NCBI RefSeq assembly: GCF_015207665.1
Contig: NZ_JADEWL010000050.1
Location: 1-43,631, forward strand
Direction: 5' to 3'
Origin: Plectonema cf. radiosum LEGE 06105
Lineage (GTDB): Bacteria > Cyanobacteriota > Cyanobacteriia > Cyanobacteriales > Nostocaceae
Length of the DNA stretch: 43,631 nucleotides
The notes under the pieces are model-generated. The model searched no databases and was not told where the DNA came from. It worked only from the letters and a program-made list of their open reading frames with translations. The position numbers and the translations under genes are program-made. This document shows, piece after piece, positions 7,143 to 38,617 of this stretch (its first letter is position 1; every line of letters starts with the position of its first letter).

Positions 7143-8615
7143 ATGAGTGAGGAAATTAATTCAGGAACTTTAATTAATAATCGCTATCTAATTGATAAAA
7201 CTTTGGGAAGAGGTGGATTTGGTAGAACTTATTTAGCTTTAGATACTCATCGTTTCCAGGAACCATGTGTACTCAAAGAGTTTTTACCAAATACTAATAA
7301 TGCCAAGGTAATTAGTAAATCTAAGGAACTATTTGAACGGGAAGCAAAAGTTTTATACCAAATTCAACATTCTCAAATTCCGCAATTTTTGGCTTTATTA
7401 ACTCATAATCAGCAATTATTTATTGTTCAAGAATATATTAATGGTAAAACTTATTTACAAATTTTAGACGAGCGTCTTTCTACAACAGGTAAACCATTTT
7501 CGGAAACTGAAGTCAGAGAATGGCTTTTAAAAATGTTACCAGTTTTAGAATATATTCACAGTTGTAATATTATTCACCGGGATATTTCACTAGAAAATGT
7601 CATGCTTCCGGACAATGGAAGTAAACCTGTATTAATTGATTTTGGAGTAGTAAAAGAAAAATTCAGCCAAATATTTTTAACTGATTCTTCTTCACCGCAA
7701 TACTGTACTAAAGCTTCAGTAGTGGGGAAAATTGGTTATTCACCACCGGAACAACTGCGTTTAGGGCAATGTTATCCTTCAAGCGATATTTATGCTCTTG
7801 CTGTTTGTGCAGTAATTCTGTTAACTGGTAAAATGCCATATTTATTAATAGATGAATCATTAAATTGGCAATGGCAAAAAAGTGTTAATATTAGCGGTAA
7901 TTTAACTAAAATTTTGGAGAAAATGTTAGCAGAATTACCTATCAAACGATATCAATCAGCAAAAGAAGTAAGAATAGAGTTAGAGAATAGTTGCAATTAT
8001 AATATTAATGTTAGTAATAATGACTTGAAACCAAAAATATCATTAGGTGGTATTATTTCCACTTTATTACCAAAACAAACATATAATAAAGAGAAGCTAA
8101 AAGCTGATGAAGAACTTAGTTTTGAAAAACTCGGACAAACACCAGTTTATCTAAATCCACAATTTGTAGATTATTGTCAACAACAACTTACTAGTTTTGT
8201 TGGACCTTTAGCTAGCGTTGTGATACAACAAACTTTGGATGAAAATCCCGATATAGCATCAAAAGAATTTATAGAAGTGTTAGCGAACAAAATTCCTAAT
8301 GTACAACGCGCGGAAGATTTTAGAAGTCATATCCAACTTCTCAAAGAATTTAAATTAGAAAAAACTACTAAATTAAATGAATCATCTTTGAATTTAATCA
8401 AATCTCCTGCTATTAGTCATCCAGATTTTTTAGACCATTGTCGGCGAGAATTAACTAGTTTTGTCGGTCCTTTTGCTAGTGTGGTCATTCGAGATACTTT
8501 AGAAGAATGTCCACATTTCACCCCCAAACAACTTATAGAATCCTTAGCCGCTGGAATTCCCAATCACAAAAAAGCAAAGGAATTTGAAAGACGTATTCTT
8601 CAGGGACAAGAATAA
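7143..8615 (+). CDS. Ser/Thr protein kinase with two C-terminal adaptor-like repeats
   Basis: A 490-residue protein. Residues about 14-282 form a Hanks-type kinase: glycine loop LGRGGFGRTYLA, Lys45, catalytic loop HRDISLEN (Asp147, Asn152) and DFG (166-168). The catalytic-loop Lys after HRD is replaced (HRDIS), a variant I associate with cyanobacterial kinases. A linker leads to two copies of a helical domain at about 339-399 and 427-486, each with a C-x3-LTSFVGPxASVVI core and a ...IPN...F end. The same domain closes the caspase-family protein at 33678. No transmembrane segment is apparent, so the kinase should be cytosolic. The repeats resemble small effector-associated domains of bacterial conflict proteins (possibly Pfam DUF8082, from memory). 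Substrate unknown. A hairpin follows the stop. Confidence 0.92.
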   Translation: MSEEINSGTLINNRYLIDKTLGRGGFGRTYLALDTHRFQEPCVLKEFLPNTNNAKVISKSKELFEREAKVLYQIQHSQIPQFLALLTHNQQLFIVQEYINGKTYLQILDERLSTTGKPFSETEVREWLLKMLPVLEYIHSCNIIHRDISLENVMLPDNGSKPVLIDFGVVKEKFSQIFLTDSSSPQYCTKASVVGKIGYSPPEQLRLGQCYPSSDIYALAVCAVILLTGKMPYLLIDESLNWQWQKSVNISGNLTKILEKMLAELPIKRYQSAKEVRIELENSCNYNINVSNNDLKPKISLGGIISTLLPKQTYNKEKLKADEELSFEKLGQTPVYLNPQFVDYCQQQLTSFVGPLASVVIQQTLDENPDIASKEFIEVLANKIPNVQRAEDFRSHIQLLKEFKLEKTTKLNESSLNLIKSPAISHPDFLDHCRRELTSFVGPFASVVIRDTLEECPHFTPKQLIESLAAGIPNHKKAKEFERRILQGQE

Positions 8616-18478: not shown

Positions 18479-19270
18479 TTAGACGAATCTTGCCAGCAAA
18501 AGGCTAAGAGCAAAGGAAAAGGTATGAACGCTAAAATGGGATAACATCGCAGCCTCAAGTGAGTATTGCCAAAAGAGCCAACCGAAAGCAATGCCAGCAA
18601 TCCCATTAAGTAATATCGCTCGGACGATCACAATTGGAGTGAGGGGAACGATCGCGGCAGTCGCTGGCAGGTGTAGTAGTCCAAATACCAACGCGGCTAG
18701 CACGATCGCACCTTGGTATATTGCTTGACTTGGCAACGTAATGCCTTGTTTTAAGACCTTCCACGCGATCCAAACAAGCAGCGACATGAAGCCCCAGCGC
18801 ATCAGAATTTCCTCAGTGATGCCGCCATAAAGCATTGCTGTAAGTGAACTCAGCCAATTCAACTCTGTATTATTTGATACCTGTAGTGCTTCAGGTAGAG
18901 CAGGCTTCATGAACCGATCGAGCAACAGAAGAACGATCGTCGTCGCTGCACCCACACCCAAGCTCCATTGCATCTCAATGACAGAAAATGGAATCTTAGG
19001 GGTATGAAGTACCCAGTAGTCAATCAAATGTGAGCGTAATCCAACGCGATAGGCACAGCCAATTCCGATCAGAATGCTGATTGCTAGTAGAACTGTAAGC
19101 TGTAGTGCTTGCAGCAGTATTAAAACCCACAGTGGCGGAACGTTTGCCAGTTCTTCTGGAGACAGTTGTGCCAACCGTTGCTCAACGAATGGAACCGACG
19201 TAATCGCAAGCATCATAATTCCCGCAATGCCCAACACAAATAGAATTCCAAATTGTTTCAAAACTGCCAT
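18479..19270 (-). CDS. CPBP (CAAX-type) intramembrane metalloprotease, copy 1
   Basis: A 263-residue multi-helix membrane protein of the CPBP/Abi family. Its motifs are EEILMRWGFM (Glu-Glu-x3-Arg), FGLLHLP and a C-terminal block NGIAGIAFGWLFW with LSHFSVH. These carry the metal and catalytic residues of CAAX-type proteases; members process peptides, give immunity to own bacteriocins or act in signalling. The start at 19270 (MAVLKQFG) has GGAG nine bases upstream and matches the paralogue at 21114-21905, also 263 residues. The two genes share a perfect 97-base stretch (18645-18741), suggesting recent duplication or gene conversion. Substrate unknown. Confidence 0.9.
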   Translation of the reverse strand: MAVLKQFGILFVLGIAGIMMLAITSVPFVEQRLAQLSPEELANVPPLWVLILLQALQLTVLLAISILIGIGCAYRVGLRSHLIDYWVLHTPKIPFSVIEMQWSLGVGAATTIVLLLLDRFMKPALPEALQVSNNTELNWLSSLTAMLYGGITEEILMRWGFMSLLVWIAWKVLKQGITLPSQAIYQGAIVLAALVFGLLHLPATAAIVPLTPIVIVRAILLNGIAGIAFGWLFWQYSLEAAMLSHFSVHTFSFALSLLLARFV

Positions 19271-19411
19271 TGATTTAATCTCCAGAGTAAAACACTTAGA
19301 AAAAACAAGCAACATGAGTAGAACCAGTCTTTTTTGGGCACTCGAATCATATTATCGAACCAGGGTTGCGAACGGCTAGAGCTATACTTGTCGATCATTC
19401 AATTTCGGAAG

Positions 19412-20266
19412 TCAGCTAAATGCCGTTGCATAATCGCGAGCAAAGTCCTTAAACTGACGCGGCGCTTTGCCAGTCGCATCCTCTATCCCTGAAGCGATCG
19501 CTGCTGCCTCATTGCGTCGATAATGGGCGTAATCTTCAATCAGTCCATCGGCTTGCCAAGCTGGCATCCCAAAGCCAACCATTGCTTCCCGCATCTGTTC
19601 GGGTAGGATATCGACAAACGCAATCTGACGCTTCACGGCAGCAGAAAGATATTCTGCCATCTCGGTATGTGTTAGTGCCTGCAAACCCGTAAGATCATAA
19701 ATCTTTCCTTCATGCCCAGCTTTGGTTAGAGCAGCTACAGCAACGTCAGCAATGTCGCGGACATCTACTACGCTCACCTTCGCATCACCGATCGCAGCGT
19801 AAAAGGTGTTTTGCTCAACGATCGACGATCGGAAGTTTAACAAGCCCTGCATAAACAGATTGGGGCGCAGAAACGTATACGCCATCTGGGTTGCTTGGAT
19901 CGCCGATTCGACAGCCGCATGGTAGCGTAAAAAGCGCACAGGTGAGCGGGCATCGGCTGCAAATTGCGACAGTTTAACGATGTGCTTGACACCGCTTTGT
20001 TGTGCCGCTTCGACAAACGCGAGTTGCTGTGCTTCGGCGCGTTCTGTTGAGTTGGTGACGAGGAAGGCTCGATCGACCCCTGCCAGGGCAGAGGGCAGTG
20101 TTTCAAGGCGATCGAAATCAGCCTCGACCATTTCGATGCCCATATCTGCAATTGCTTTGGCTCGATTGCGATCGCGCACCATCGCGTGAGCTTGAACGTT
20201 TTGCGCGGCGAGACGCTTGAGTACCTCCAGACCGTTATTTCCAGTTGCGCCAGTTACTAAGATCAT
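19412..20266 (-). CDS. NmrA-like NAD(P)H-binding SDR (atypical)
   Basis: A 284-residue protein with the N-terminal motif TGATGNNGLEVLKRL, a basic patch (MVRDRNRAKA) typical of NADP(H) binding and the segment FLRPNLFMQGLL. This is the NmrA/QOR2-like group, in which some members are quinone or redox-sensing reductases. There is no classical YxxxK pair in the expected place, as is common for NmrA types. CAGGAG precedes the ATG. Codon use and GC fit the island. Its neighbours are CPBP proteases and a GPP34 protein, which give no clear pathway. Confidence 0.88.
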   Translation of the reverse strand: MILVTGATGNNGLEVLKRLAAQNVQAHAMVRDRNRAKAIADMGIEMVEADFDRLETLPSALAGVDRAFLVTNSTERAEAQQLAFVEAAQQSGVKHIVKLSQFAADARSPVRFLRYHAAVESAIQATQMAYTFLRPNLFMQGLLNFRSSIVEQNTFYAAIGDAKVSVVDVRDIADVAVAALTKAGHEGKIYDLTGLQALTHTEMAEYLSAAVKRQIAFVDILPEQMREAMVGFGMPAWQADGLIEDYAHYRRNEAAAIASGIEDATGKAPRQFKDFARDYATAFS

Positions 20267-20385
20267 TTGAATCTCCTGATTAGATTTTGAGCATTCTTCT
20301 GCTCCAACACGCCGGACAATTCTGATAGGAAAGCAAAGCTTTCAAAAATTGTCCGAACTATTGTTCTATACAACCCCTAACGATT

Positions 20386-21039
20386 TCATCTGACATTGAC
20401 TGCGCCCAAAATCGTGGTTGCTTGAATGATGAAAATTGCCTTTGAAACTGCTTTGCCGACCAACTCCCCTTCTGCGATCGCTCTAATTCGCGATCGCGCT
20501 TCAGGACGTTCTTCAGGTCTGAACACCGCATCGGTCAGGTGAGAGGCTTGCATCAAACTAATCAATGCTACCATCCGAGAATTCAGTCCAATGCCTTCTA
20601 ACACGGCTGTACGAACTTGCTGGACAATCTCGCGCTGAATCGATTCATCGGTGAGAAAATATCGCCGCGTTGGGAATAGACCCAGAATGCGTTGCTCTTG
20701 TCGTTGCAAAACACCTAAATCGACTAAGTTCTGCAACACAATCGGCTGAAACCATCTGTATCTTCGTCTCCAACGAGTCACCCAGAACCTTGCAGTTCGA
20801 GGACGAGACGATGCCAGAACTTCATTGAGGTGTCGATCTAAGAATTCATTGCCTGTGTTGCCTGCGTTCGCACCGATCACCCGATTGTCGTTGTCGATCT
20901 CAAGTTTGTCTCGTAGGATTAAGTCTAGTAACAAAGAACCGACCAAGCCATATTCGAGCGCCGCGTAGAAAGAGAAGCGAGTTTTCCCAGTTTCGGGATT
21001 GAGTGCAAGAAGGATTAAGTCCTGTGAAAGATATTGCAT
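20386..21039 (-). CDS. GPP34 (GOLPH3-like) family protein
   Basis: A 217-residue protein resembling the Golgi phosphoprotein 3 / Vps74 fold: an N-terminal helix LSQDLILLALNPETGK, then YGLVGSLLLDLILRDKLEID, and a late helical region with SRMVALISLMQASHLTDAVF. Eukaryotic members bind PI4P and retain glycosyltransferases; bacterial members are mostly actinobacterial, of unknown role. It has no membrane helix. A basic stretch (FWVTRWRRRYRW) could contact acidic lipids. It lies between an NmrA-like gene and a CPBP protease with ribosome site CAGGAA. It is unusual for a cyanobacterium, so probably acquired with the island. Confidence 0.8.
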   Translation of the reverse strand: MQYLSQDLILLALNPETGKTRFSFYAALEYGLVGSLLLDLILRDKLEIDNDNRVIGANAGNTGNEFLDRHLNEVLASSRPRTARFWVTRWRRRYRWFQPIVLQNLVDLGVLQRQEQRILGLFPTRRYFLTDESIQREIVQQVRTAVLEGIGLNSRMVALISLMQASHLTDAVFRPEERPEARSRIRAIAEGELVGKAVSKAIFIIQATTILGAVNVR

Positions 21040-21113
21040 GATAAATTCCTGATTGAAGTATGCTGTGGTTCCTTAAGGGGGCAGTGCTAGCCCTACGATA
21101 TCTATTCCAAAAC

Positions 21114-21905
21114 TTAAGCCAACCTTGCCAGTAAACCGCTAAGAACAAAGGTAAAAGCATGAACGCTGATATGAGCTAACATTGCCGCTTCTAGCGAATA
21201 TTGCCAAAAGAGCCAGCCAAACCCAATCCCTGCAATTCCATTCAGTAACAACGCCCGAATAATCACAACTGGAGTGAGTGGAACGATCGCGGCAGTCGCT
21301 GGCAGGTGTAGTAGTCCAAATACCAACGCGGCTAGCACGATCGCACCTTGGTATATTGCTTGACTTGGCAACGTAACGCCTTGTTTTAGCCCTTTCCACC
21401 CGATCCAAACAAGCAGCGACATTAAACCCCAGCGCATCAAAATTTCCTCAGTGATACCGCCATAGAACATTGCTGTGAGCAAATTCGACCAATTTGGCTG
21501 TGTATTATTGGTTGCCCGTAGCGCTTCAGGTAGGAGAGGTTGCATCAACCGATCGAGCAATAAGAGAACGATCGCCGCCGCTGCACCCATACCCAGGCTC
21601 CATTTCATCTCAACGGCAAAAGATGAAGACTTAGCAGTGTGAAACACCCAATGATCGATCAAATGGGAGCGTAATCCAACGCGATAGGCACAGCCAATTC
21701 CGATCAGAATGCTGATTACTAGTAGAACTGTAGGCAGTAGTCCTTGCAACAGCATTAAAACCCACAATGGAGGCACCTTTTCGAGCATTTCTGGAGACAG
21801 TTTTGCTAACTGTTGCTCGACTAAAGGAATAGACCCGATCGTGAACATGAGAATTCCCACACTGCCCAATACAAATAAAATCCCAAATTGTTTCAGAATT
21901 GCCAT
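21114..21905 (-). CDS. CPBP (CAAX-type) intramembrane metalloprotease, copy 2
   Basis: A 263-residue paralogue of the gene at 18479, with identical architecture and motifs: EEILMRWGLM, FGLLHLP, NGIAGIGFGWLFW and LAHISVH. Start at ATG 21905 (MAILKQFG), with GGAG nine bases upstream as in copy 1. Divergence is spread over the N-terminal half, while 21280-21376 is identical to copy 1. The two copies flank the NmrA-like and GPP34 genes, so the duplication may have involved more than one gene or an insertion between copies. Confidence 0.9.
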   Translation of the reverse strand: MAILKQFGILFVLGSVGILMFTIGSIPLVEQQLAKLSPEMLEKVPPLWVLMLLQGLLPTVLLVISILIGIGCAYRVGLRSHLIDHWVFHTAKSSSFAVEMKWSLGMGAAAAIVLLLLDRLMQPLLPEALRATNNTQPNWSNLLTAMFYGGITEEILMRWGLMSLLVWIGWKGLKQGVTLPSQAIYQGAIVLAALVFGLLHLPATAAIVPLTPVVIIRALLLNGIAGIGFGWLFWQYSLEAAMLAHISVHAFTFVLSGLLARLA

Positions 21906-21941
21906 TAATCTAATCTCCAAGTGATGCCTTGATGACTCAAC

Positions 21942-22319
21942 TTAACGTTTCGTACATCCATATTGCTGTTGGATAGCATTGTTTCTGTACACTTCTAGCG
22001 TTCCAGATTGCTGGCTATCCAATGTTCCATCCCAAACCCAGTATTGATAATTACCATTCTGGAATTTGTAAACTCGAACGCCTTCTGTTGCTTGGCTTGT
22101 TCCTCTTCCCAAGCTCAAATTTCCGTTGGAACTGGTTGAGCGATAAAGGAGTTCGCCTGATTTTTTAGTTTTCCAGATATTGACGTTGTATCCGCCTTGG
22201 CATTGCAAGTTGAGGAGCAAATTAGCGGTAGAATCGGCTTTTGCAGGTAAAGCGAAATGAACTATCATGCTGGTTGCTAAAGTCAGAAGAGTTGTGGAAT
22301 AAGTTAGGAATGCTTTCAT
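21942..22319 (-). CDS. Secreted protein of unknown function, 125 residues
   Basis: From ATG 22319 (GAGGG upstream) the protein begins MKAFLTYSTTLLTLATSMIV and has a signal-peptide cleavage region LPAKADS. The mature 100-residue part has two Cys (LQCQGG and QYGC) that could form one disulfide, and strands such as VYKFQNGNYQYWVWDG and TLEVYRNN. This looks like a small beta-rich exported protein. No family was recognised. It sits between the two CPBP groups; being exported, it could be the object of local proteolysis or protection, but nothing shows this. Confidence 0.7.
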   Translation of the reverse strand: MKAFLTYSTTLLTLATSMIVHFALPAKADSTANLLLNLQCQGGYNVNIWKTKKSGELLYRSTSSNGNLSLGRGTSQATEGVRVYKFQNGNYQYWVWDGTLDSQQSGTLEVYRNNAIQQQYGCTKR

Positions 22320-22401
22320 GGTGTTCCCTCTAAGTATTTGAGTGGTAGGTTTACGGTAGAGCAGTCGTGAAATCACTTTACCGATGACCCTTTCGATCGC
22401 T

Positions 22402-23361
22402 CTAGGAAACGGGTTTGGATACCCCGTCGCGCTTGAACACTCGGAAAACGATCACCAGGAAAACGGGAATCAGCACGAGAGAGGTGATGTCGTAGAATCT
22501 TGCATGGTACTCACTAATGCTGAACAGGGCTGGCGTGGTGAAGAAGCTTCCAGACCAGTTGAACAGGAGAAAGTACGCAATGTTGTTGGCGAAGTGCGCC
22601 CCGATCGCAAGCTCGGTGGTGCCGTCGATCAATGAAACGATCGCAAACAGCAGACCCGTGCCGACGAAGAGTCCGAGGAACATCCCGATCCAGCCACCCT
22701 CCTGTGACTCTGGATTGGTGGCGTGCGGCAGGGTGAAGATCACAGCCGAGACGATCGCCAGAAACATCCGGTTCGACCAGATCAGGCTCGCACCCTGCAC
22801 GATGTACCCGCGAAAGAAAAGCTCCTCGGTGGTCGTCTGGATTGCGGTGAGAACCAGCGCGATCGGGACGAAGAGCGCGAACGTTGCGAGGTCGGAGTTG
22901 AAGGAGAAGGTGTCGGGGTAGAGGAAGTACTGCCCCAGCCCGCCGAGCAGCACCCAGGGCACGAACCCAGCCACGAACCCGTGACCAACGCGCCGCCAAC
23001 TGATTTTCTCCCGCGCCGTAATGAGCGTCCGGGGATGACGCTGGTGGATGAGGGTGATGGCGATGAGAATTCCCGCGAGAAACACCGGAAAACCCGCCAT
23101 GACCACGACGAAGCCCCCCACGGAACCGAACGCAGCGTAATCCAGCCGACCCAAAGCCGCAGCACCCTCTTTGCCGCCAATCGCAAGCGCGACGAGTGCG
23201 CTGGCGAAGTTGGCGACGACCATCCAGGCAAAGAGGATGATCATTAGCCCCAGAACATACCGCCACCACCGATACTTACCCCACCCAGCAGCCTCGACGT
23301 AAGTCGCGCCTTTCACTTCCGTTCCGATTCCCTGCTTTCCTTTGATTGCTTTAATCCTCAT
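22402..23361 (-). CDS. CPBP intramembrane metalloprotease, copy 3 (GC-rich)
   Basis: A 319-residue membrane protein of the CPBP family with TTEELFFRGYIVQGA (Glu-Glu-x3-Arg), FTLPHATNPE (second motif His) and FANNIAYFLLFNW (third motif). About eight helices. The start at 23361 has AAAGGAG six bases upstream, the same leader as the paralogue at 23455. Its GC content is clearly above the rest of the window and long shadow frames run on both strands. It differs from copies 1 and 2 in motif spelling and length, so it belongs to a separate lineage within the family. Confidence 0.9.
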   Translation of the reverse strand: MRIKAIKGKQGIGTEVKGATYVEAAGWGKYRWWRYVLGLMIILFAWMVVANFASALVALAIGGKEGAAALGRLDYAAFGSVGGFVVVMAGFPVFLAGILIAITLIHQRHPRTLITAREKISWRRVGHGFVAGFVPWVLLGGLGQYFLYPDTFSFNSDLATFALFVPIALVLTAIQTTTEELFFRGYIVQGASLIWSNRMFLAIVSAVIFTLPHATNPESQEGGWIGMFLGLFVGTGLLFAIVSLIDGTTELAIGAHFANNIAYFLLFNWSGSFFTTPALFSISEYHARFYDITSLVLIPVFLVIVFRVFKRDGVSKPVS

Positions 23362-23454
23362 CTTTGTCTCCTTTACTGGTGCGTGTGTGCAAAATTCACG
23401 GAACAATTGCAGTCACTTTAATACATTTGCTGATTGTTTTACGAACTTACGAGA

Positions 23455-24411
23455 TCACCGACGACTCTCCGGTGGCTCTGGGAAACGGGTGGGGGCTTTA
23501 CGCTTGAACACTCCGTAGGCGATCGCCAGAAACACAGGGATTGCAACCAGCACCGATAGCGCCCCGTAGGTCGCGTGGAACTCGCTGATTGTGAACAGAG
23601 CGGGAGTGGTCACGGCGGTTCCGGCTGCGTTGAACAGGAGGAAGCCGACGATGTTGTTCGCGAAGTGTACGCCGATCGCAAGCTCGGTGGTTCCGTCAAT
23701 CAACGAGACGACGGTCCACAGCAGACCCGGAACGAGGAAGTAGCTGAAAAAGACCGTGAACCAGCCGCCAGCAATTGCCTCCGGGTTGAGCAGGTGCGGC
23801 AGGGTGAATACCATGGCCGCCACGAGCGCCAGAAAGATGCGGTTGCCCCAAACAATGCTCGCCCCCTGCACAATGTATCCGCGAAAGAAAAGCTCCTCTG
23901 TGGTGGTCTGGATCGCGGTAAAGACTAGCGCGATTGGCACAAAAAGCGCGAACGTTGTGAGGTTGGAGTTGAAGGAAAAGGTGTCGGGATAGAAGAAGTA
24001 CTGTCCCAGCCCACCAATCAGGCAGGCTGGCACGAACCACGCCACAAACCCGTGACCGACACGCCGCCAGCTAATCTTTTCCTGCGCTGTGACCAGCGTC
24101 CGGGGGTGGCGGCGGTGGATGAGGGAGACGGCGATGAGAACACCCGCGAGGAAAAATAGGAAACCTACCATAACAAACAGGAACTTCCCCAAAGGACCAA
24201 GCACGTAGTAATCTGGTTGACCGCTAAACGCGAACGCGACGAGTACGCTGGCACCAGTCCCGACCACCAGCCACGCAAAGAGGATAACCACCAGCCCCAG
24301 AACATACCGCCACCCCCGATGCTTACCCCACCGGGCAGCCTCCACGTAAGTCGCGTCTTTCCCTTCCGCTCCGCTTCCCTGATGTCCTTTGATTGCTTTG
24401 ATCTTCATCAT
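23455..24411 (-). CDS. CPBP intramembrane metalloprotease, copy 4 (GC-rich)
   Basis: A 318-residue tandem paralogue of the gene at 22402: EELFFRGYIVQGASIVW, FTLPHLLNPE and ANNIVGFLLFN are conserved, as is the opening KIKAIKGHQG. The two genes share identical leaders (GTAAAGGAGACAAA) and are 93 bases apart. Expected metal ligands are intact. The pair follows a TetR gene on the same strand, which probably controls them. Possible roles are immunity to a membrane-active peptide or processing of a prenylated or lipid-linked substrate; neither is visible in the sequence. Confidence 0.9.
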   Translation of the reverse strand: MMKIKAIKGHQGSGAEGKDATYVEAARWGKHRGWRYVLGLVVILFAWLVVGTGASVLVAFAFSGQPDYYVLGPLGKFLFVMVGFLFFLAGVLIAVSLIHRRHPRTLVTAQEKISWRRVGHGFVAWFVPACLIGGLGQYFFYPDTFSFNSNLTTFALFVPIALVFTAIQTTTEELFFRGYIVQGASIVWGNRIFLALVAAMVFTLPHLLNPEAIAGGWFTVFFSYFLVPGLLWTVVSLIDGTTELAIGVHFANNIVGFLLFNAAGTAVTTPALFTISEFHATYGALSVLVAIPVFLAIAYGVFKRKAPTRFPEPPESRR

Positions 24412-30465: not shown

Positions 30466-31644
30466 TTATAAATATAAAGTTTCATATTCATAATCATCGG
30501 GTGTTGGCTCTACTTTCCATACCAAACCTTCTTCATCCTCACCCAAAGCGACATCAACATAAATTCTTTCTACAGGTGTTTTAGCTTGAACTTGATTGCC
30601 ATCAAATGGTTGTAAGTCTTCTGTTAACAGCATTAATTTCAACCCAACAGGAATCATCTCTCCCACTGTTGCACGTCGTAATTCAAAACGCCAAATTCTA
30701 TCTTCAATTCTACCTTTGGGATGCACTAATAATTCATATTCCAAACCGGATATAATAATTTTTCTAATTAAAGTTGTTCCTTGAGGTGTTTCTGTAGTAC
30801 CTCTAGCACCTTCTAAATTAGGTTGTAAATTTATACTTCCCCAACCAAATTGTCTCGCTACTTCCGATACTCCCGTTTGCATCCATTGTCTAATTGACCA
30901 TTGTTTTGGTATTCCCAAACGTTGTTCGTACAATCTTTGTCTCCAACCAAATTGTTCTAATAATGCTCCCCACATCGTCCATGGTATTTCTTGACGGGGA
31001 TTTATTACTTGGGGATTTCCTAACCGATTTAACAAGTTTTCTGCTTGAATTGCGGACAATTCCGGTATCGGAACAGTTGGATTTTTGGTGATTTCTTCCG
31101 GACAAATTTGACGTGCTATCCATAAAATGCTCAAGTTAGAAATTAGATGCTCCTTATTTAAACAATAAGTGCGATCGCGATGATCATAATTTCCCATTTG
31201 TTTTAAATTTACTTGAGATGTATAACCCCAAATTCTCATATATCCGGATTCTACATTAATTTGTACAGCTGCGTAATAATCAGCGCTCCATTTGGGAATG
31301 TCTACCCATTCTTGAGGAACTCTAATTTCTGATATATCAAGGGCTTCAGTGGGAATTAATACTAATTTTTTACCATTAAAACAAATACCCGTACCATTGG
31401 TAACTTCCCAAATACTCGGTAAAGTAGCAGAATTAGGAAACAATTTTGCATCTTGAGCGTATTCTTCCTGGAGCCAAGGTAAAAACACATTTAAACTTAA
31501 ACGGTTGAGATATCCTATCCAACGACGATTATCTGTAGAATAAGCTTGACTTTGTTGCCAAATTTTAGTTTGTTGGTTTTCGGGAATTTCCAACCATAGG
31601 TTTGTAGGATTATTTAAACTTAGCGTTTCTAAATCAACGTTCAT
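30466..31644 (-). CDS. DUF1822 family protein
   Basis: A 392-residue protein of the cyanobacterial DUF1822 family; characteristic parts are TNLWLEIPENQQTKIWQQSQ, RRWIGYLNRLSLNVFLPWLQ, TGICFNGKKLVLIPTEALDI, a WVDIPKWSADYYAAVQINVE strand and a C-terminal PVGLKLMLLTEDLQPF. ATG 31644 has GGAG nine bases upstream. No catalytic motif, signal peptide or membrane helix is evident. The gene follows the sigma-like gene with an 82-base gap filled by repeats, and a caspase-family gene is transcribed divergently from that pair. DUF1822 genes are, to my recollection, often next to such sigma-like genes. Function unknown; an adaptor or sensor for the sigma-like factor is a guess. Confidence 0.85.
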   Translation of the reverse strand: MNVDLETLSLNNPTNLWLEIPENQQTKIWQQSQAYSTDNRRWIGYLNRLSLNVFLPWLQEEYAQDAKLFPNSATLPSIWEVTNGTGICFNGKKLVLIPTEALDISEIRVPQEWVDIPKWSADYYAAVQINVESGYMRIWGYTSQVNLKQMGNYDHRDRTYCLNKEHLISNLSILWIARQICPEEITKNPTVPIPELSAIQAENLLNRLGNPQVINPRQEIPWTMWGALLEQFGWRQRLYEQRLGIPKQWSIRQWMQTGVSEVARQFGWGSINLQPNLEGARGTTETPQGTTLIRKIIISGLEYELLVHPKGRIEDRIWRFELRRATVGEMIPVGLKLMLLTEDLQPFDGNQVQAKTPVERIYVDVALGEDEEGLVWKVEPTPDDYEYETLYL

Positions 31645-31654
31645 AATCAAAGGC

Positions 31655-31726: not shown

Positions 31727-32911
31727 CTATTTACTGTAATAAGTTTGCAACCATTCCTCTAAAAGAGTACTCATATAATCTAATAGTGACGAATTTAAGG
31801 AAATATGCAGCGATTCTTTGCTCCAAGTAGCCAATTTTAGTAATAATATGTCCTTACATTTACTAAGTTTACGAGAAATCGTGTATTGCTTTACTCCTAA
31901 TTCTTTCGCTATTTGTGATTGGGTCAAACTACCTTGATAGTAATATTTAATAATATTTTGTTCTTGTTCATCTAATTCTTTGATGGCAGCAATTATCACA
32001 TTGCTGATTTGAGATTGCTGTGATTTTCGTTCGGCAATTTCTTCTTGAGCGATAATTTCTGAAAGCAAGGATTCTTGTCTAAGTTGCGGTAAAATATCTT
32101 GAAATTCTCCGGAATTATCCCCCGAAGTTGCATTCAAAGAAGCCATATTGGGATATAAATAAGCCCGTACAGCTTTTGCACAACTAATCAGCCATTTTTC
32201 TATGGTTTCTCCACTACATTCTAGTCCAGGTTGGGAAAGTTGAGAATGGCGATCGCGATTATAAAGTTGAGCAATATTCTCCCATACAATATCATCTGGT
32301 CTTGCTAGTTTACGAGTTCCCTTTTCTTGACGAGGAGCATACATTGCTTGATAAGCTTTCCAAGCAAGTAAGTAAGATTCGATAGTTTGTGCATTCAATC
32401 CAGCATTTTCTAAAGATTCTACCAACCTTTTTTGAGTCAACTTCCGCAACAATCTCCAATCGGTAGAAATATCAACTTCTTTGTGTTGTCGTAATAATTC
32501 CTTAAGTTCACTACTAAAAATCGCACTAGCATAATTTTTAATATTAAAACCCATATCAGGTTTAAAACCTTGCAAAACTTTATCAGTCTTAGTAACAATC
32601 GCTTGAAAACAATCTGATAAAGTATATTGACCAGAAGAAAAATGAGTAACTGTTTTATTTGCAGCCCAATAGCAAACTTCTTGTAAATAAGCCGATAAAT
32701 GTCCTTTTGCTAAATTCTCTGTCTGAGATTGCCATTTTTTATACCAATAAGATACCCAAAAATCTTCGGAATTTTCTGATTTTGATAACGCTTTTTGATG
32801 ATTAATAATATTCCGACGTAATCTAGCATCGGTAGCCCAACCAATTACTCTATTTGCGTCAAATTGTAAGAAAGTTGTAAATAATTCGGCAATAGTTTGA
32901 CGAGAACGCAT
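31727..32911 (-). CDS. Sigma-70-like regulator, diverged
   Basis: A 394-residue protein. The C-terminal quarter is a sigma-70 region 4 helix-turn-helix (DEQEQNIIKYYYQGSLTQSQ, IAKELGVKQYTISRKLSKCK). The N-terminal part (RSRQTIAELFTTFLQFDANR, WATDARLRRNIINHQ) and the middle are cyanobacteria-specific and lack an obvious region 2. It may be a diverged sigma factor or a DNA-binding regulator with a sigma-like tail. I use the ATG at 32911; a GTG 15 bases upstream is an alternative. It is followed by DUF1822 and divergent from the caspase gene, over a 766-base gap that would hold both promoters. Confidence 0.85.
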   Translation of the reverse strand: MRSRQTIAELFTTFLQFDANRVIGWATDARLRRNIINHQKALSKSENSEDFWVSYWYKKWQSQTENLAKGHLSAYLQEVCYWAANKTVTHFSSGQYTLSDCFQAIVTKTDKVLQGFKPDMGFNIKNYASAIFSSELKELLRQHKEVDISTDWRLLRKLTQKRLVESLENAGLNAQTIESYLLAWKAYQAMYAPRQEKGTRKLARPDDIVWENIAQLYNRDRHSQLSQPGLECSGETIEKWLISCAKAVRAYLYPNMASLNATSGDNSGEFQDILPQLRQESLLSEIIAQEEIAERKSQQSQISNVIIAAIKELDEQEQNIIKYYYQGSLTQSQIAKELGVKQYTISRKLSKCKDILLLKLATWSKESLHISLNSSLLDYMSTLLEEWLQTYYSK

Positions 32912-33369
32912 AACTAAATCACTCACAAATATATAAGTACATCATAAATACATCTACATATATATTAGATGCAGTTACCTGATTATACCGACAATAACAC
33001 AGACTCCTATATCCACGTTTTTAACTGCATTTAGTTAGGTTTTTATCAATTACCGATAATATCTAAAAAAATCACTTTACACAACTTAATTAAGTTGATT
33101 TAAATGATTACTAGGTTGGTATGAAGCAATCAATTTTGTCAATACTTCTAAATATATAAATATTTTGACATGATTATTTTCAATTAAAAAATTCAGGAAT
33201 AGGCGCGATTGACTGCTTATTTTTACGTTCAAGATTGTCACACAACGACAATAATGCCCGAAGTTAATCTACACCGCCCCAGAGCCTCCCCTACAATAAA
33301 AATTTGCCAGTTACGTAAGTCCTAAAATTAATTAATTGATGCTCAACTTTATAATTACCTCAAAGCTCT

Positions 33370-33677: not shown

Positions 33678-35822
33678 ATGGCTCCTCTCGGCGTAGGTTC
33701 TAGCGATTCAACTTATACATTAAAATCAGGAGAAGCGAAACTTTGGCTATTATTAGTAGGTGTTAACGATTATCAAGATATAAGTTTACCTTCTTTACGT
33801 TATCCAGCCTTAGATTGTCAGGGATTGGAAGAATCACTTGTGAAAGCGACAGAAGGATTTCCCAATAAAGAAATAGTTGTACATCATGATTTTGCCAGAA
33901 AAGCGCCAGAAATAAAGAATATTCGCCAAAGTTTGTACAAAATTGTTTCCCAATCACAACCGAATGACTCGATTTTATTATATTTTTCCGGACATGGGAT
34001 GTTAGAGCCAAATACTCAAGAAGCTGTCCTATGTTTTTCCGATACTAATAAAAGTAACTTGTTGGCTACTGGTTTACCGATGCAGGAACTTGTAGAAATA
34101 TTAAGTAAAAGTCCTGCAAAGCAACAATTATTGTGTTTGGATACCTGTCATAGTGGTGATATGGCATTGTTAGGAGCAAGGGTTGGTAGTTCTAGGGATG
34201 GAGATATTGCACCCTTGTCCAATTCTACCCCGCAACTGATGAACGTCCTTAGACACCGTGCTTCTCAAAGTAAGGGATTTTGTGCTTTACTAAGTTGCGA
34301 TCGCGGTCAACAATCTTGGGAATTTCCGGAGTTAGGCCATGGAGTATTTACTTATTATTTAATGCGAGGATTATCGGGGGAAGCAGCCGATAACAGCGGA
34401 TTTATTGATGCTGACGGACTTTATAAATATGTTTATCGTCAAACGGTACAGTATATTGATAAGTTAAATCATCAAGTACGTTTAATTAATCAGCAAAAGC
34501 GAGAGCGTGGAGATAGTCAGCTTTATCCAGAGTATCCCATACAAACACCGAAAAGAATTGTTGAAGGTGTCGGAGAGTTAATTGTTGGATTTAAGCCGAA
34601 TCAGGTTGATTCTCATAAGTTACGACGTGCTTTAATCATTGATGGATTAGCAAATCGTGAAAATACTCATAATCTGAGTCAACTGCTCAAAAGTGCTGGT
34701 GATTTTGAGGTGGAATGTTTTTACCAACAACATCAAAATTGGTCGGAAATTCGTACAGAAATTCAAAAATTTACCCAAGTGAGTGGAGAATTAAATGCAC
34801 AATATAATCAAAAAGTAGGGGGAGTAAAGAGAATACCAACTTGTTTATTATATTTACGGGGATATGTTGAAGAAAAAGAAGATGGAGAAGCCTGTTTAGT
34901 TTTAGGTGATGGAGTACGTTTGAGTCGTTGTTTTTTGAGACAACTATTACGTCGTACTCAAAAAATTCAACAAATAGTTATTTTAGATTTAATAAGTTCA
35001 GAATCTTCAGGAATTAGTTCTGCACAAAATTGGATAGAAGATTTACAATGCGGTACCGAATATGGACAATGTTTGATAGTTACTCAAACACCCGTTCATC
35101 AATCAGCAATATTTTCCCAAATTATTTTAGAAAGTCTTGTGAATGCAAATCCTCAAGTAGGATTACCAGTTGCTAAATGGATTAGTCAATTACAAAAACT
35201 CTTACAAAGTAAAGGTGTAAATTTACATACTTGGCTTTCTGGTACCCAAGCAATCATTGATATTTTACCCGGTAATATCAATCAAGTATTTCACAATGTT
35301 CAACAAATTAAACCTCAAAATAATATAGCTAAATTACCTGATGTAAAAGTACCAATACAATCCCCAAATCAGTTAATTATAAATTTCGAAAAATATACAG
35401 AGTTAGAAGAGTTACTCAAAAAAACAATCGGAATAATTGCATCTAAAATATTGCAACAATCAATTAAAAAAGTCGGGGACTACCAACAATTAATTGAAAA
35501 ATTAACTGATTATATCCCCCTACAAGAAAAAATTCTATTTAAAAATCAAGCAACAGCTATTTTAGAAATACCAAGTATTTCAACTCAATCTCAATTAGCT
35601 AAATCTTCAACAACTTTATATCAAACTATTGATGCTGATTTTATCAGCAAATGTGAAAGTTACTTAACTTATTCCATTGGTCCAATTGCTAATTTTATCA
35701 TTCAAGAGACTTTACAATCTCATCCCTTAATTTCTATAACCGAATTCGTTGATAAATTATTACAAAATATTCCCGATTACGGAATTGCCATGGAATTTAA
35801 AAAACGTATATTGGAACGGTAA
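33678..35822 (+). CDS. Caspase-family protease with pseudo-caspase and adaptor-like repeats
   Basis: A 714-residue multidomain protein. Residues about 20-290 form a caspase p20-like (orthocaspase, peptidase C14) domain with catalytic His106 in YFSGHG and Cys157 in DTCHSG. Residues about 312-445 follow the same strand order (RRALIIDGLANRENTHNLSQ, LLYLRGY, VILDLISSES) but with Tyr396 and Ile439 at the catalytic places, so this looks like an inactive second caspase-like domain. Two C-terminal copies of a small helical domain follow: a diverged one at about 574-625 and a canonical one at 653-713, matching those of the kinase at 7143. Caspase-type proteins with such effector-associated domains are predicted effectors of bacterial conflict or suicide systems. 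No signal peptide or membrane segment is apparent. It is divergent from the sigma-like/DUF1822 pair. Confidence 0.93.
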   Translation: MAPLGVGSSDSTYTLKSGEAKLWLLLVGVNDYQDISLPSLRYPALDCQGLEESLVKATEGFPNKEIVVHHDFARKAPEIKNIRQSLYKIVSQSQPNDSILLYFSGHGMLEPNTQEAVLCFSDTNKSNLLATGLPMQELVEILSKSPAKQQLLCLDTCHSGDMALLGARVGSSRDGDIAPLSNSTPQLMNVLRHRASQSKGFCALLSCDRGQQSWEFPELGHGVFTYYLMRGLSGEAADNSGFIDADGLYKYVYRQTVQYIDKLNHQVRLINQQKRERGDSQLYPEYPIQTPKRIVEGVGELIVGFKPNQVDSHKLRRALIIDGLANRENTHNLSQLLKSAGDFEVECFYQQHQNWSEIRTEIQKFTQVSGELNAQYNQKVGGVKRIPTCLLYLRGYVEEKEDGEACLVLGDGVRLSRCFLRQLLRRTQKIQQIVILDLISSESSGISSAQNWIEDLQCGTEYGQCLIVTQTPVHQSAIFSQIILESLVNANPQVGLPVAKWISQLQKLLQSKGVNLHTWLSGTQAIIDILPGNINQVFHNVQQIKPQNNIAKLPDVKVPIQSPNQLIINFEKYTELEELLKKTIGIIASKILQQSIKKVGDYQQLIEKLTDYIPLQEKILFKNQATAILEIPSISTQSQLAKSSTTLYQTIDADFISKCESYLTYSIGPIANFIIQETLQSHPLISITEFVDKLLQNIPDYGIAMEFKKRILER

Positions 35823-36047: not shown

Positions 36048-36941
36048 TTAATTATTCTTTTTTCTATTCAACATATTCATGGCAATTTCTAGACTATATT
36101 TCATCCGGTTAAAAGCTTCAGCTAAATCTCCAATTTCATCCTTATTTTGTCTACCAAAATTAGCATCCATATTACCGACGCTAACTTGTTCAGCAACTGT
36201 CGCAATACGCTTTATTCGTCGTAATACAGTTCTTTGTAACAACAGATTAATGATGATAATTACCACCGTGAACACCATCGCCACAATTCCCGTTACCAGC
36301 ATAAATGAATCACGAGCATTTTCGAGAATTTCTTCGGCGGGTACATAAACAATTTGCACACCAAGAATATCATTGAGCGTCCATCCGAAACCATGTTCAC
36401 TTCCATAAGTTTTTAACTGGCTTTTCGGTGCGTTTTCAGGAATACTATGACATCGTAAACAACTTTCATTTTTAATTGCAAAAGGTTTAGCAGTATAATA
36501 TAGTTTTATTCCTGACATTGTACGAAAACCAGATAAAGATGTTTTATCGGGTTGTTGACGAAAACTATTAACAATTTCAGTTTCAAAATCATCCGCTTTA
36601 TCTCGTAAATTTGTAGGATTTAATGTTGCATCTTTATAGAAAAAATTCGCGTATTCTGGAGTATTACGAAAATATTCAAAAACTTCTCTCACCGAGTAAG
36701 ATGGTATCGATTCTGGAATAAAATTCTCTTGAATTTCTACTTGTGGTGATAATAAAGGTCCTACTCGTTCATTTGTATAGCTTCTCACTGAGTTATTCAT
36801 TGTCATTAATGCACTGGCTTTAGAATTTATCTCATTTTGCGCTTTTTGTTGTAATACATTTGATAGCGCAATACCGCTAATTAAAATTCCGAGCAGAAAA
36901 AGAATTATCAGAATTGAATTTACTTTATTTTCTATTTTCAT
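36048..36941 (-). CDS. DUF3365 (Tll0287-like) haem-sensor domain with HAMP
   Basis: A 297-residue membrane protein. Helix 1 lies at about 8-28, then a periplasmic Tll0287-like/DUF3365 domain (about 35-205) with the haem-attachment motif CLRCH (Cys161, Cys164, His165), helix 2 at about 213-236 and a HAMP domain (about 237-290; LRRIKRIATVAEQVSVGNMD, DEIGDLAEAFNRM). It ends shortly after HAMP with no kinase, cyclase or methyl-acceptor domain. It may sense redox state or a gas via a c-type haem and pass the signal by direct interaction. The neighbour on the same strand, 53 bases upstream, is an MFS-FHA fusion. Confidence 0.9.
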   Translation of the reverse strand: MKIENKVNSILIILFLLGILISGIALSNVLQQKAQNEINSKASALMTMNNSVRSYTNERVGPLLSPQVEIQENFIPESIPSYSVREVFEYFRNTPEYANFFYKDATLNPTNLRDKADDFETEIVNSFRQQPDKTSLSGFRTMSGIKLYYTAKPFAIKNESCLRCHSIPENAPKSQLKTYGSEHGFGWTLNDILGVQIVYVPAEEILENARDSFMLVTGIVAMVFTVVIIIINLLLQRTVLRRIKRIATVAEQVSVGNMDANFGRQNKDEIGDLAEAFNRMKYSLEIAMNMLNRKKNN

Positions 36942-36994: not shown

Positions 36995-38617
36995 TTAATT
37001 CAATTGAAATACAAACGCTACCATATCACGTTTACCCAAACCAAGTTTAACTCCCGGTCCTAATTTGTACCAAATACCTGGTAAAAGTGGATATTTATTA
37101 ATATAAGTGCCGTTGGAACTTCCCATATCTTGGATATAATAATCTTGTCCATCAAATTTAATTTGAGCGTGATTCCGCGAAACAACTTCTGAATAAGGTA
37201 AGTTAGAAATATCTATATCAGATGTACCATTTTTATGCTGTTTACCGATATAAATTAATGAAGGAATTTCTGGTAAATCAATAATTTTATTCGTGAGAGT
37301 GTGAACTAACTGAGCAACCGGAGCTTGTAAATCTGTAGGAGAGGCAATGGAAGGAATAGCTGTTAATTCTTCATCTATTTCTATTTCTGGTAGTAACTGT
37401 GGTACTGATTTAGTTTGTTTGGGAGTTATGAGAATATTAAATATTACAAATGCAATTAAAGCGTATCCAGCGGAACTAAAGAAAACTGCTTTAATACCCC
37501 CAATCGCGATCGCAATTGCTCCTAATATCGGACCTAATGCTTGTCCCAATGACTGAACACTAGCATTTACAGCCATAAAGCCAGCGCGGGTATCTTGTGC
37601 AGAAAGCCCCGCTAATAATGCTTGAGATGATGGTAAGGCAAATGCTAAGGCTACACCAAATAAAGCGCTAGGAATCAATAGCAGCCAAGGATTATTAATT
37701 ACCGGAATGATTAATAATGCTACAGCACTGATAATAAAAGAAACTTTAATTAAGGTAATTTCCGAAAATCTTTGAATTAACCATCCCAATTGAGAAGCAC
37801 TAATCGCAACCGCTAAGGACATTACACATAAAATAATCCCATTCATCAATCCAGAAGCACCAAGGGAAATCCCCGCAAAAATGGGGACGTAGGTAATGAA
37901 AGCTCCAAATTGAATCATAAATATGGAACCCACTGCAAATAATAATCCGATTACGGAACGGTTATTAATACTTTTATAGGTAGTCTTTAAATAAGTTTTT
38001 AAACTTGGTTTTTCAACTCCGGGAGGTTTTGAGGGTAGCTTTAATACCATAATTACCAACATTACCAAGGGGAAAGCCAAAACTGCAAGTAAAAATGGAT
38101 ATGTCCAGTTAATACTTCCTAATGCTCCCCCTAATAACGGATATATTGCCGAAGATATACCAATTACCGCTGCATTGATTGACATTGCTGCACCCAGTTT
38201 TCTACCGTTGTAGAGCATTGCAATCATCGTTAAAGCTAAAGCATCCAACGGAGCCGCACCTAACCCCTGTAAAAATCGTAATCCCAAAACAGAAGTGAAA
38301 GTCCCCGCAAAAGAAATAGATGCTCCGGCGATCGCAAATAATATTAAGGCAGGAATCAAAACTTTCCTAATCCCGATTCGATCGGCTAATACTCCTAAAA
38401 TCGGAGTTGCGATACCAATGGGTAATACAAAAAGTGTCATTACCAGTTCAATTTCCCTGGGAGAAACATTAAATACAGAGGTTAGACTCGGTAATATTGG
38501 GGCAACTGTTTGTCCTCCCATAATCGATATCAGCGTTACACCAATAATGATGTAAAGATTTTTGTCTTGAGTAATTTCGGTATTTTTCTGCTCTGCTGGT
38601 ATTGAAAGGTTATTCAT
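36995..38617 (-). CDS. MFS transporter fused to a C-terminal FHA domain
   Basis: A 540-residue protein. Residues about 20-400 are a 12-helix major facilitator of the drug-efflux type (LADRIGIRKVLIPALILFAI holds the loop motif between helices 2 and 3, and FLQGLGAAPLDALALTMIAM follows). After a linker, residues about 450-537 form a forkhead-associated domain: SRNHAQIKFDG, the IQDMGSSNGTYINKYPL segment and LGLGKRD. FHA domains bind phosphothreonine, so transport may be controlled by a Ser/Thr kinase such as the one at 7143, by inference. Full-length fusions of this sort are uncommon in my recollection. Substrate unknown. The start ATG has no strong ribosome site. Confidence 0.92.
   Translation of the reverse strand: MNNLSIPAEQKNTEITQDKNLYIIIGVTLISIMGGQTVAPILPSLTSVFNVSPREIELVMTLFVLPIGIATPILGVLADRIGIRKVLIPALILFAIAGASISFAGTFTSVLGLRFLQGLGAAPLDALALTMIAMLYNGRKLGAAMSINAAVIGISSAIYPLLGGALGSINWTYPFLLAVLAFPLVMLVIMVLKLPSKPPGVEKPSLKTYLKTTYKSINNRSVIGLLFAVGSIFMIQFGAFITYVPIFAGISLGASGLMNGIILCVMSLAVAISASQLGWLIQRFSEITLIKVSFIISAVALLIIPVINNPWLLLIPSALFGVALAFALPSSQALLAGLSAQDTRAGFMAVNASVQSLGQALGPILGAIAIAIGGIKAVFFSSAGYALIAFVIFNILITPKQTKSVPQLLPEIEIDEELTAIPSIASPTDLQAPVAQLVHTLTNKIIDLPEIPSLIYIGKQHKNGTSDIDISNLPYSEVVSRNHAQIKFDGQDYYIQDMGSSNGTYINKYPLLPGIWYKLGPGVKLGLGKRDMVAFVFQLN

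Follow-up and report, generated by a model that had tools for sequence, protein, structure and literature searches.

STAC-like tails on a cyanobacterial protein kinase and caspase as probable docking modules for HAMP-ended heme receptors

The present study finds that a Ser/Thr protein kinase and a caspase-family protein from the cyanobacterium Plectonema cf. radiosum LEGE 06105, both encoded in one 43,631-nucleotide stretch of DNA (the whole of which we call the window), share C-terminal tails made of STAC-like domains. What the computation shows is that the tails are repeats, that they resemble the STAC protein Af1502 and that their genes are associated with those of membrane receptors. From this we consider it likely that the tails are docking modules, which would join soluble enzymes to HAMP-ended membrane receptors as detachable outputs; the docking, the direction of the signal, NO as its ligand and the targets of both enzymes are what we infer.

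The kinase (490 amino acids; 7143..8615, plus strand) has a Pkinase domain at residues 17-271 (E 1.1e-35) with its catalytic residues present (VLKE at 43, HRD at 145 and DFG at 166), and ends in copy A at residues 337-398 (8151..8336, plus strand) and copy B at residues 426-486 (8418..8600, plus strand). The caspase (714 amino acids; 33678..35822, plus strand) has a Peptidase_C14 domain at residues 24-237 (E 7.1e-20), with His106 and Cys157 invariant across 12 aligned relatives, and ends in a diverged first copy at residues 568-627 (35379..35558, plus strand) and a second copy at residues 651-712 (35628..35813, plus strand). Copy A and the second caspase copy were defined by alignment and profile, copy B additionally by an AlphaFold model (best PDB match 5a1q), and the diverged copy by an iterated profile. 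The original prediction, that kinase and caspase have a small non-catalytic C-terminal domain in common, is borne out. The motif C-x3-L-x3-[VI]-G-P-[LFI]-A-x2-[VI]-I, followed by TL, IP[ND] and F, is present in the translations of all three stretches first noted, and the profile hits agree with the boundaries proposed for them within two or three residues. Local alignment scores were 166 between kinase copies A and B, and 114 and 113 between A and B, respectively, and the second caspase copy, against highest shuffled scores of 43, 51 and 50. None of 2000 shuffles reached the observed score in any of the three comparisons, which rules out chance resemblance. Two copies had been counted rightly in the kinase, whereas the caspase had been given one only, its diverged copy having been overlooked (E 4.1e-11 with the iterated profile in the open reading frame set and 2.0e-13 in the genome). 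Thus, both proteins end in a tandem. BLASTP aligned caspase residues 561-713 with kinase residues 332-487 (E 1.4e-13), so that the likeness covers a tandem as well.

A broader profile found seven matches in four open frames of the whole genome: two each in the window kinase and the window caspase, one in a kinase on another contig (C287) that has a single copy, and two in a locus on contig C243 that has decayed. The genome has eight C14 caspase matches, and the tail domain lies in the same frame in one of the eight. A model built from five copies detected the domain in 64 of the 99 genomes examined in the host's family, and in 22 of the 292 sampled across the phylum. It was carried once or twice by Ser/Thr kinases, one to three times by caspases and one, two or four times by HisKA_3 histidine kinases, and also by small proteins without other domains. 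At the decayed locus (L068, 11790-12641), the two STAC-like stretches stand tail-to-tail with two short Tll0287-HAMP remnants, and a DUF1822-like gene is near. The site looks like a tailed-caspase locus that decayed along with its receptor; a reading of its neighbour gene as a sigma factor was not borne out.

The original STAC paper is reportedly that of Korycinski et al. (2015). A profile of 112 copies, searched against the PDB sequences, matched Af1502 alone up to E 10 (E 0.0021), and a second profile, whose 88 copies came mainly from other loci, again ranked it first (E 0.00088; next match 0.27), the sequence match aligning 27 columns, mainly in the GPxA region. The AlphaFold model of kinase copy B (pLDDT 93.1, pTM 0.82, from an 88-row alignment) is a small helical bundle with three helices by DSSP, the first of which (10-38) is long. 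Foldseek placed 5a1q_B and 5a1q_A first and second among 350,542 chains, with probability 0.94, TM 0.60/0.63 and 67-68 columns covered, at an E value of 0.25 that is not significant on its own; the third match had a probability of only 0.15. Since sequence profile and fold both choose Af1502, the likeness to STAC is convincing. The [IV]GPxA element is the most conserved part of the copies, and Af1502 aligned there with IGPIA. According to the passages of PMC4834066 available to us, Af1502 is the type member for the STAC domain, a four-helix bundle of two hairpins with the LGPx(x)A motif between its first two helices, and proteins of this type are coupled genomically to Af1503-like receptors, in which HAMP is the only cytosolic part. 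The tails described here combine the LGPx(x)A motif, a modelled fold like that of Af1502, profile similarity and genomic coupling to HAMP-ended receptors. They resemble the domains of Af1502/Af1503 (Archaeoglobus fulgidus, 5A1Q) and CbrA in size, GPxA motif and predicted helical fold. As with Af1502/Af1503, the proposed receptor partner has HAMP as its sole recognised cytosolic domain, and histidine-kinase fusions occur among the relatives found here (L089 and L106). Unlike in Af1502 and CbrA, the domain is here found at the C-terminus of Ser/Thr kinases and caspases, often in tandem, and the receptors are bacterial and of the c-heme type. The carriers scanned by Pfam included no CbrA-type SLC5 fusion, which Af1502 itself lacks too, and among 3065 open reading frames none fused HAMP to a STAC-like domain.

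Searches of the whole proteins in Pfam, NCBIfam and PADLOC gave no convincing family for the domain. The copies themselves had sporadic weak matches only, in Pfam (5 and then 112 members), PADLOC (112) and NCBIfam (112). The Pfam family matched by most members was PXA (5 of 112, best E 0.013). The PADLOC model PD-T4-2_B matched caspase residues 569-624 (E 0.0085), which is exactly the diverged copy, and 3 of the 112 copies in all (best E 0.0026); this points to a possible tie to a phage-defence protein.

The original prediction went on to propose a homotypic adaptor, in which the copies would bind each other and the kinase would meet the caspase via the tails, as in death-fold or EAD systems. 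We consider this unlikely. In its favour, the domain is terminal and non-catalytic, is shared by signalling enzymes, recurs several times in a genome, and at 14 of the 36 loci with a tailed caspase (among the best 80 of 177) is present on a kinase and a caspase together, an arrangement covered by the EAD principle as set out in the available parts of PMC7159879 and PMC8195603. An Af1502 crystal pair with a 580 square-angstrom interface is also described in the accessible text of PMC4834066. However, the same text gives Af1502 as monomeric in solution. The AlphaFold model of the kinase tandem, from 36 rows only, had a pTM of 0.43 and no confident packing of A on B, and so offered no fixed pair, in itself weak evidence. 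Furthermore, no death-fold entry appeared among the 28 Foldseek matches of the copy B model or among the Pfam families listed. Death-fold membership is rejected on this ground, the modelled fold resembling STAC Af1502 instead, and the profile search that had been proposed as a check related the copies, the diverged fourth one included, to each other and likened them to Af1502. Kinase and caspase copies from the same locus were no more alike than copies from different loci (32.5% and 32.6%, permutation p 0.57; 10 loci, two near-duplicates dropped), which also speaks against membership of the copies in the EAD group. Lastly, many carriers pair with a receptor and have no second carrier within reach.

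The window caspase has such a receptor next door. A Tll0287 (sCache_heme) protein of 297 amino acids (36048..36941, minus strand; Tll0287-like E 1.8e-41) is encoded tail-to-tail with the caspase, 225 bases beyond its stop codon, and is the proposed membrane partner. It has a CLRCH heme-c motif at residue 161, two hydrophobic stretches, and a HAMP domain at residues 235-280 (36102..36239, minus strand; E 7.1e-11) as its last recognised domain. The frame at 36048-36941 has all the parts of an sCache_heme HAMP receptor, namely a Tll0287 domain with CxxCH, membrane segments and HAMP. This is the layout of the Tll0287/DUF3365 sCache_heme receptors in the available passages of PMC12889525, a preprint (CxxCH sensor domain, two hydrophobic stretches and HAMP). 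Those passages give no output partners for the HAMP-ended forms, whereas here caspases, kinases and others bearing STAC-like sequence adjoin them.

The association was surveyed in 26 carrier genomes picked from the 64, mostly few-contig assemblies. A Tll0287 receptor lay within 3 kb of 48 of the 81 carriers, where random placement expects 0.26, and 46 of these 48 near pairs were tail-to-tail. Conversely, a carrier lay within 3 kb of 56 of the 73 receptor frames of up to 350 amino acids, but of only 1 of the 26 longer ones. Among the 17 short receptors without a carrier within 3 kb, 11 were inspected and had no convincing carrier. The longer receptors inspected had a C-terminal extension or another output. 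A second survey scanned the genomes of other species for the caspase family and kept the best 80 of 177 loci, 36 with tailed caspases and 44 with tail-less relatives (6 of them cut by a contig end); the two surveys overlap in species. In these best 80 of 177 loci, a receptor lay within 5 kb of 31 of the 36 tailed caspases (29 tail-to-tail) and of none of the 44 tail-less ones. Three of the five tailed loci without a receptor have less than 3 kb of downstream sequence. Fisher's test of tailed against the 38 uncut tail-less caspases gave p 5.7e-16, a value that ignores the relatedness of the loci and is overstated, since the tailed caspases are kin and the 31 of 36 are not 31 independent events. 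Receptors in a 104-member tree were labelled with their closest carrier, up to 3.5 kb away (several receptors may adjoin a single caspase); caspase (36) and kinase (42) partners separated with 2 changes, against 20-33 (mean 26.3) in 200 shuffles that ignore relatedness. The pairing of receptor and carrier is stable.

Could receptor and carrier be linked without being coupled? They might be co-located by an inherited or horizontally moved block that also holds sigma, DUF1822 and MFS genes, with no docking of tail on HAMP. The block is indeed conserved: in the window it comprises a DUF1822 protein (30466..31650, minus strand; E 2.9e-110), a sigma-70-like factor (31727..32926, minus strand; Sigma70_r4 E 9.4e-09, sigma70-ECF E 1.3e-29) and an MFS transporter with a C-terminal FHA domain (36995..38617, on the receptor's minus strand; MFS_1 E 5.3e-59, FHA E 5.8e-13), and among the best 80 of 177 caspase loci relatives of the sigma factor accompany 30 of 36 tailed against 6 of 44 tail-less caspases, and relatives of DUF1822 29 of 36 against 5 of 44. 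Shared ancestry alone would also yield a partner type that tracks the receptor tree, and most cyanobacterial pairs, being tail-to-tail, do not form one operon. On the other side, the association spans caspases, one- and two-copy kinases, a histidine kinase and an MscS-like channel, in varied orientations and two phyla. Longer receptors of the same family do not share it and adjoin a ParA-like gene in 4 of 4 inspected cases, and tail-less caspases have no receptor (0 of 44, best 80 of 177 loci). We give linkage without coupling only a small probability.

The four longer receptors in question are of about 350-365 amino acids with an extra C-terminal stretch, and the adjoining genes encode ParA/MinD-like ATPases (L188, 7666-9627; L205; L212; L213). 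The third receptor of the host genome (C253) is likewise of the long type; it adjoins a ParA-like gene and has no carrier. Long receptor and ATPase may form a further kind of split receptor whose output differs.

The other doubt concerns the 33 of 81 carriers, the window kinase among them, that have no Tll0287 receptor within 3 kb. At the receptor-less loci inspected, a search with a narrow HAMP profile, reaching about 2.6 kb from the carrier, turned up no other HAMP gene. Such carriers would fit a generic spacer or targeting element, directed to the membrane or to a transporter and not specific to HAMP, with some copies acting on MFS or other membrane proteins in the manner of STAC and SLC5 in CbrA. 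Relatives of the MFS protein, scored without regard to FHA, accompany 15 of the 36 tailed caspases and 2 of the 44 that have no tail (best 80 of 177 loci) and, by reading, stand beside the unpaired receptors L204, L206, L209 and L210. In the available text of PMC13022988, a preprint, the CbrA STAC domain packs on its own membrane transporter, an SLC5 protein, which fits a docking role for the tails as well. We nevertheless regard a generic element as quite unlikely. The association of tailed caspases with receptors (31 of 36) exceeds that with MFS genes (15 of 36) in the best 80 of 177 loci, and one-copy kinases often adjoin a receptor alone. The one-copy kinase on C287 in the host genome has a Tll0287 receptor tail-to-tail with it. 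The MFS-FHA protein at 36995-38617 is of note in its own right, as a phosphothreonine reader on a transporter that adjoins a kinase/receptor system.

The nearest Tll0287 receptor to the window kinase is that of the caspase, 27.7 kb off. The proposal that kinase and caspase belong to one signalling route finds support in gene content, which makes such a link likely. Among the best 80 of 177 caspase loci, a tailed kinase was present in the retrieved stretch of 14 of the 36 tailed loci and of none of the 44 tail-less ones. In the supported clade of 20 kinases that includes the window kinase, a caspase was flagged in the retrieved locus of 11, and a receptor no more than 3.5 kb away for 3, several rows having flanks too short to flag. 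A kinase-caspase pathway is thus plausible, and the simplest way to link the two would be a shared receptor.

Defence and conflict systems offer further comparisons. The kinase domain matches those of MADS/PD-T4-6-type defence kinases in PADLOC (best E 2e-76), in matches that run from about residue 10 to at most residue 314 and so cover kinase domain and linker, the tail excluded. The EACC1 and EAD conflict systems similarly combine caspase-family peptidases, kinases and terminal small helical domains in cyanobacteria. In contrast to these, the window caspase scored 113.6 bits with the EACC1-caspase model NF047832, below its cut-off of 140, none of the 25 sporadic Pfam families listed for the copies, out of 46, was an EAD family, and the copies are not closer within a locus.

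HAMP domains relay helix motions of the receptor dimer. A HAMP-ended receptor without a recognised output would need a partner to read its HAMP domain, and the STAC-like tail is its recurring neighbour. In the window, the protein at 36048-36941, with its c-heme sCache (Tll0287) and HAMP domains, would be the receptor. Its HAMP helices would be altered by a redox signal, or by a ligand of the heme, acting outside the cytoplasmic membrane, and the STAC-like copies of the caspase would read this change, so that the protease is switched or gathered. The tandem copies could contact both halves of the receptor dimer. The tailed kinase would be a second output, of the same receptor or of another, hence perhaps in the same pathway. 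As a fair guess, the caspase might be controlled by NO or a redox signal, with NO the best guess, because the sensor family has covalent heme c and one HAMP-bearing member, from Pseudomonas, bound NO tightly (PMC12889525, preprint, available passages). On the best reading of the gene associations, the outputs of HAMP sensors in the membrane would include STAC-tailed kinases, caspases and histidine kinases, and probably channels.

The channels came from genomes outside the first set. Among the 35 genomes without a carrier by the five-copy model, 13 had a Tll0287 match; an intact short receptor was present only in G013, G062 and G024, and G043 had a broken short-receptor fragment. In each of the three, the protein adjoining the short receptor contains a STAC-like stretch (E 1.4e-09 to 9.2e-08). 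With one place in G083 included, the stretch is in the next same-strand gene (E 1.4e-09 to 4.2e-06). STAC-like stretches were seen within channel-like membrane proteins directly after a Tll0287 receptor at four places (L211, 5321-6925; L214, 4169-5812; L215, 2245-3888; L216, 2533-4242). Pfam, run on one of these proteins, gave an MscS-like match and a weak cNMP-binding match. The MscS-linked receptor of L214 has no HAMP domain by Pfam, so this type looks looser.

The association extends to plasmids of proteobacteria. A tblastn search of plasmids with the window receptor gave 11 records, of which 8 receptors were examined and the weaker Sphaerospermopsis and two Vibrio records set aside. Next to all six proteobacterial receptors (Rhodovulum, Paraburkholderia, Skermanella and three Caballeronia), the following gene encodes a Ser/Thr kinase of 441-474 amino acids that contains STAC-like sequence (E 1e-18 to 9.1e-11 for the whole protein, Z = 5000). 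Each has one copy at a domain E of 8.2e-05 or better; a second copy is clear in two (1.1e-06 and 1.4e-06) and weak in four (0.0014, 0.002, 0.0068 and 0.16). Five of the six receptor-kinase pairs sit among type VI secretion genes. The other two receptors examined are cyanobacterial: in Rippkaea, receptor and tailed caspase share one 51-kb plasmid, and the Kovacikia plasmid receptor (L221) has no carrier within 4 kb.

On a wider and more tentative view, which we hold as possible rather than probable, bacteria in general might use split receptors, in which HAMP-ended c-heme sensors are paired with soluble outputs that can replace one another (a caspase, a Ser/Thr kinase, a histidine kinase or an MscS-like channel), docked by STAC-like tails. 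Multicellular cyanobacteria would then have an NO- or redox-controlled caspase-kinase pathway, with both enzymes competing for or co-assembling on one receptor, and in proteobacteria a receptor-kinase pair would control type VI secretion.

To our knowledge, the trigger of bacterial caspase homologues is largely open. For one caspase family, the neighbouring receptor is now named as a candidate sensor; redox or a ligand of the heme, for example NO, is the candidate signal, and the putative docking domain is one that can be removed cleanly. A bacterial caspase would thereby gain a testable upstream signal. For HAMP-ended receptors, which seemingly signal to nothing, possible partners are suggested. 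STAC would reach beyond histidine kinases linked to transporters, to Ser/Thr kinases, caspases and probably channels. STAC coupling itself is known; what is new is the set of outputs and the receptor predicted at the level of the gene. Among the listings and passages covered by the literature search, no paper linked caspases or Ser/Thr kinases with STAC or with Tll0287 receptors.

A few further loci deserve mention. On an Acaryochloris conjugative plasmid (L224, 3599-4204), a small protein with a STAC-like domain (E 2.4e-18) is encoded beside a sigma-70 gene, the 8 kb retrieved there containing no receptor. Five loci (L218, L219, L220, L222 and L223) hold the beta- and alphaproteobacterial plasmid pairs amid type VI secretion genes, and a PP2C phosphatase is present in two. 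Within the window, positions 18479-24411 encode four Rce1-like CAAX protease family genes with GPP34 and NmrA-like genes between them, and a TetR-family regulator lies just beyond.
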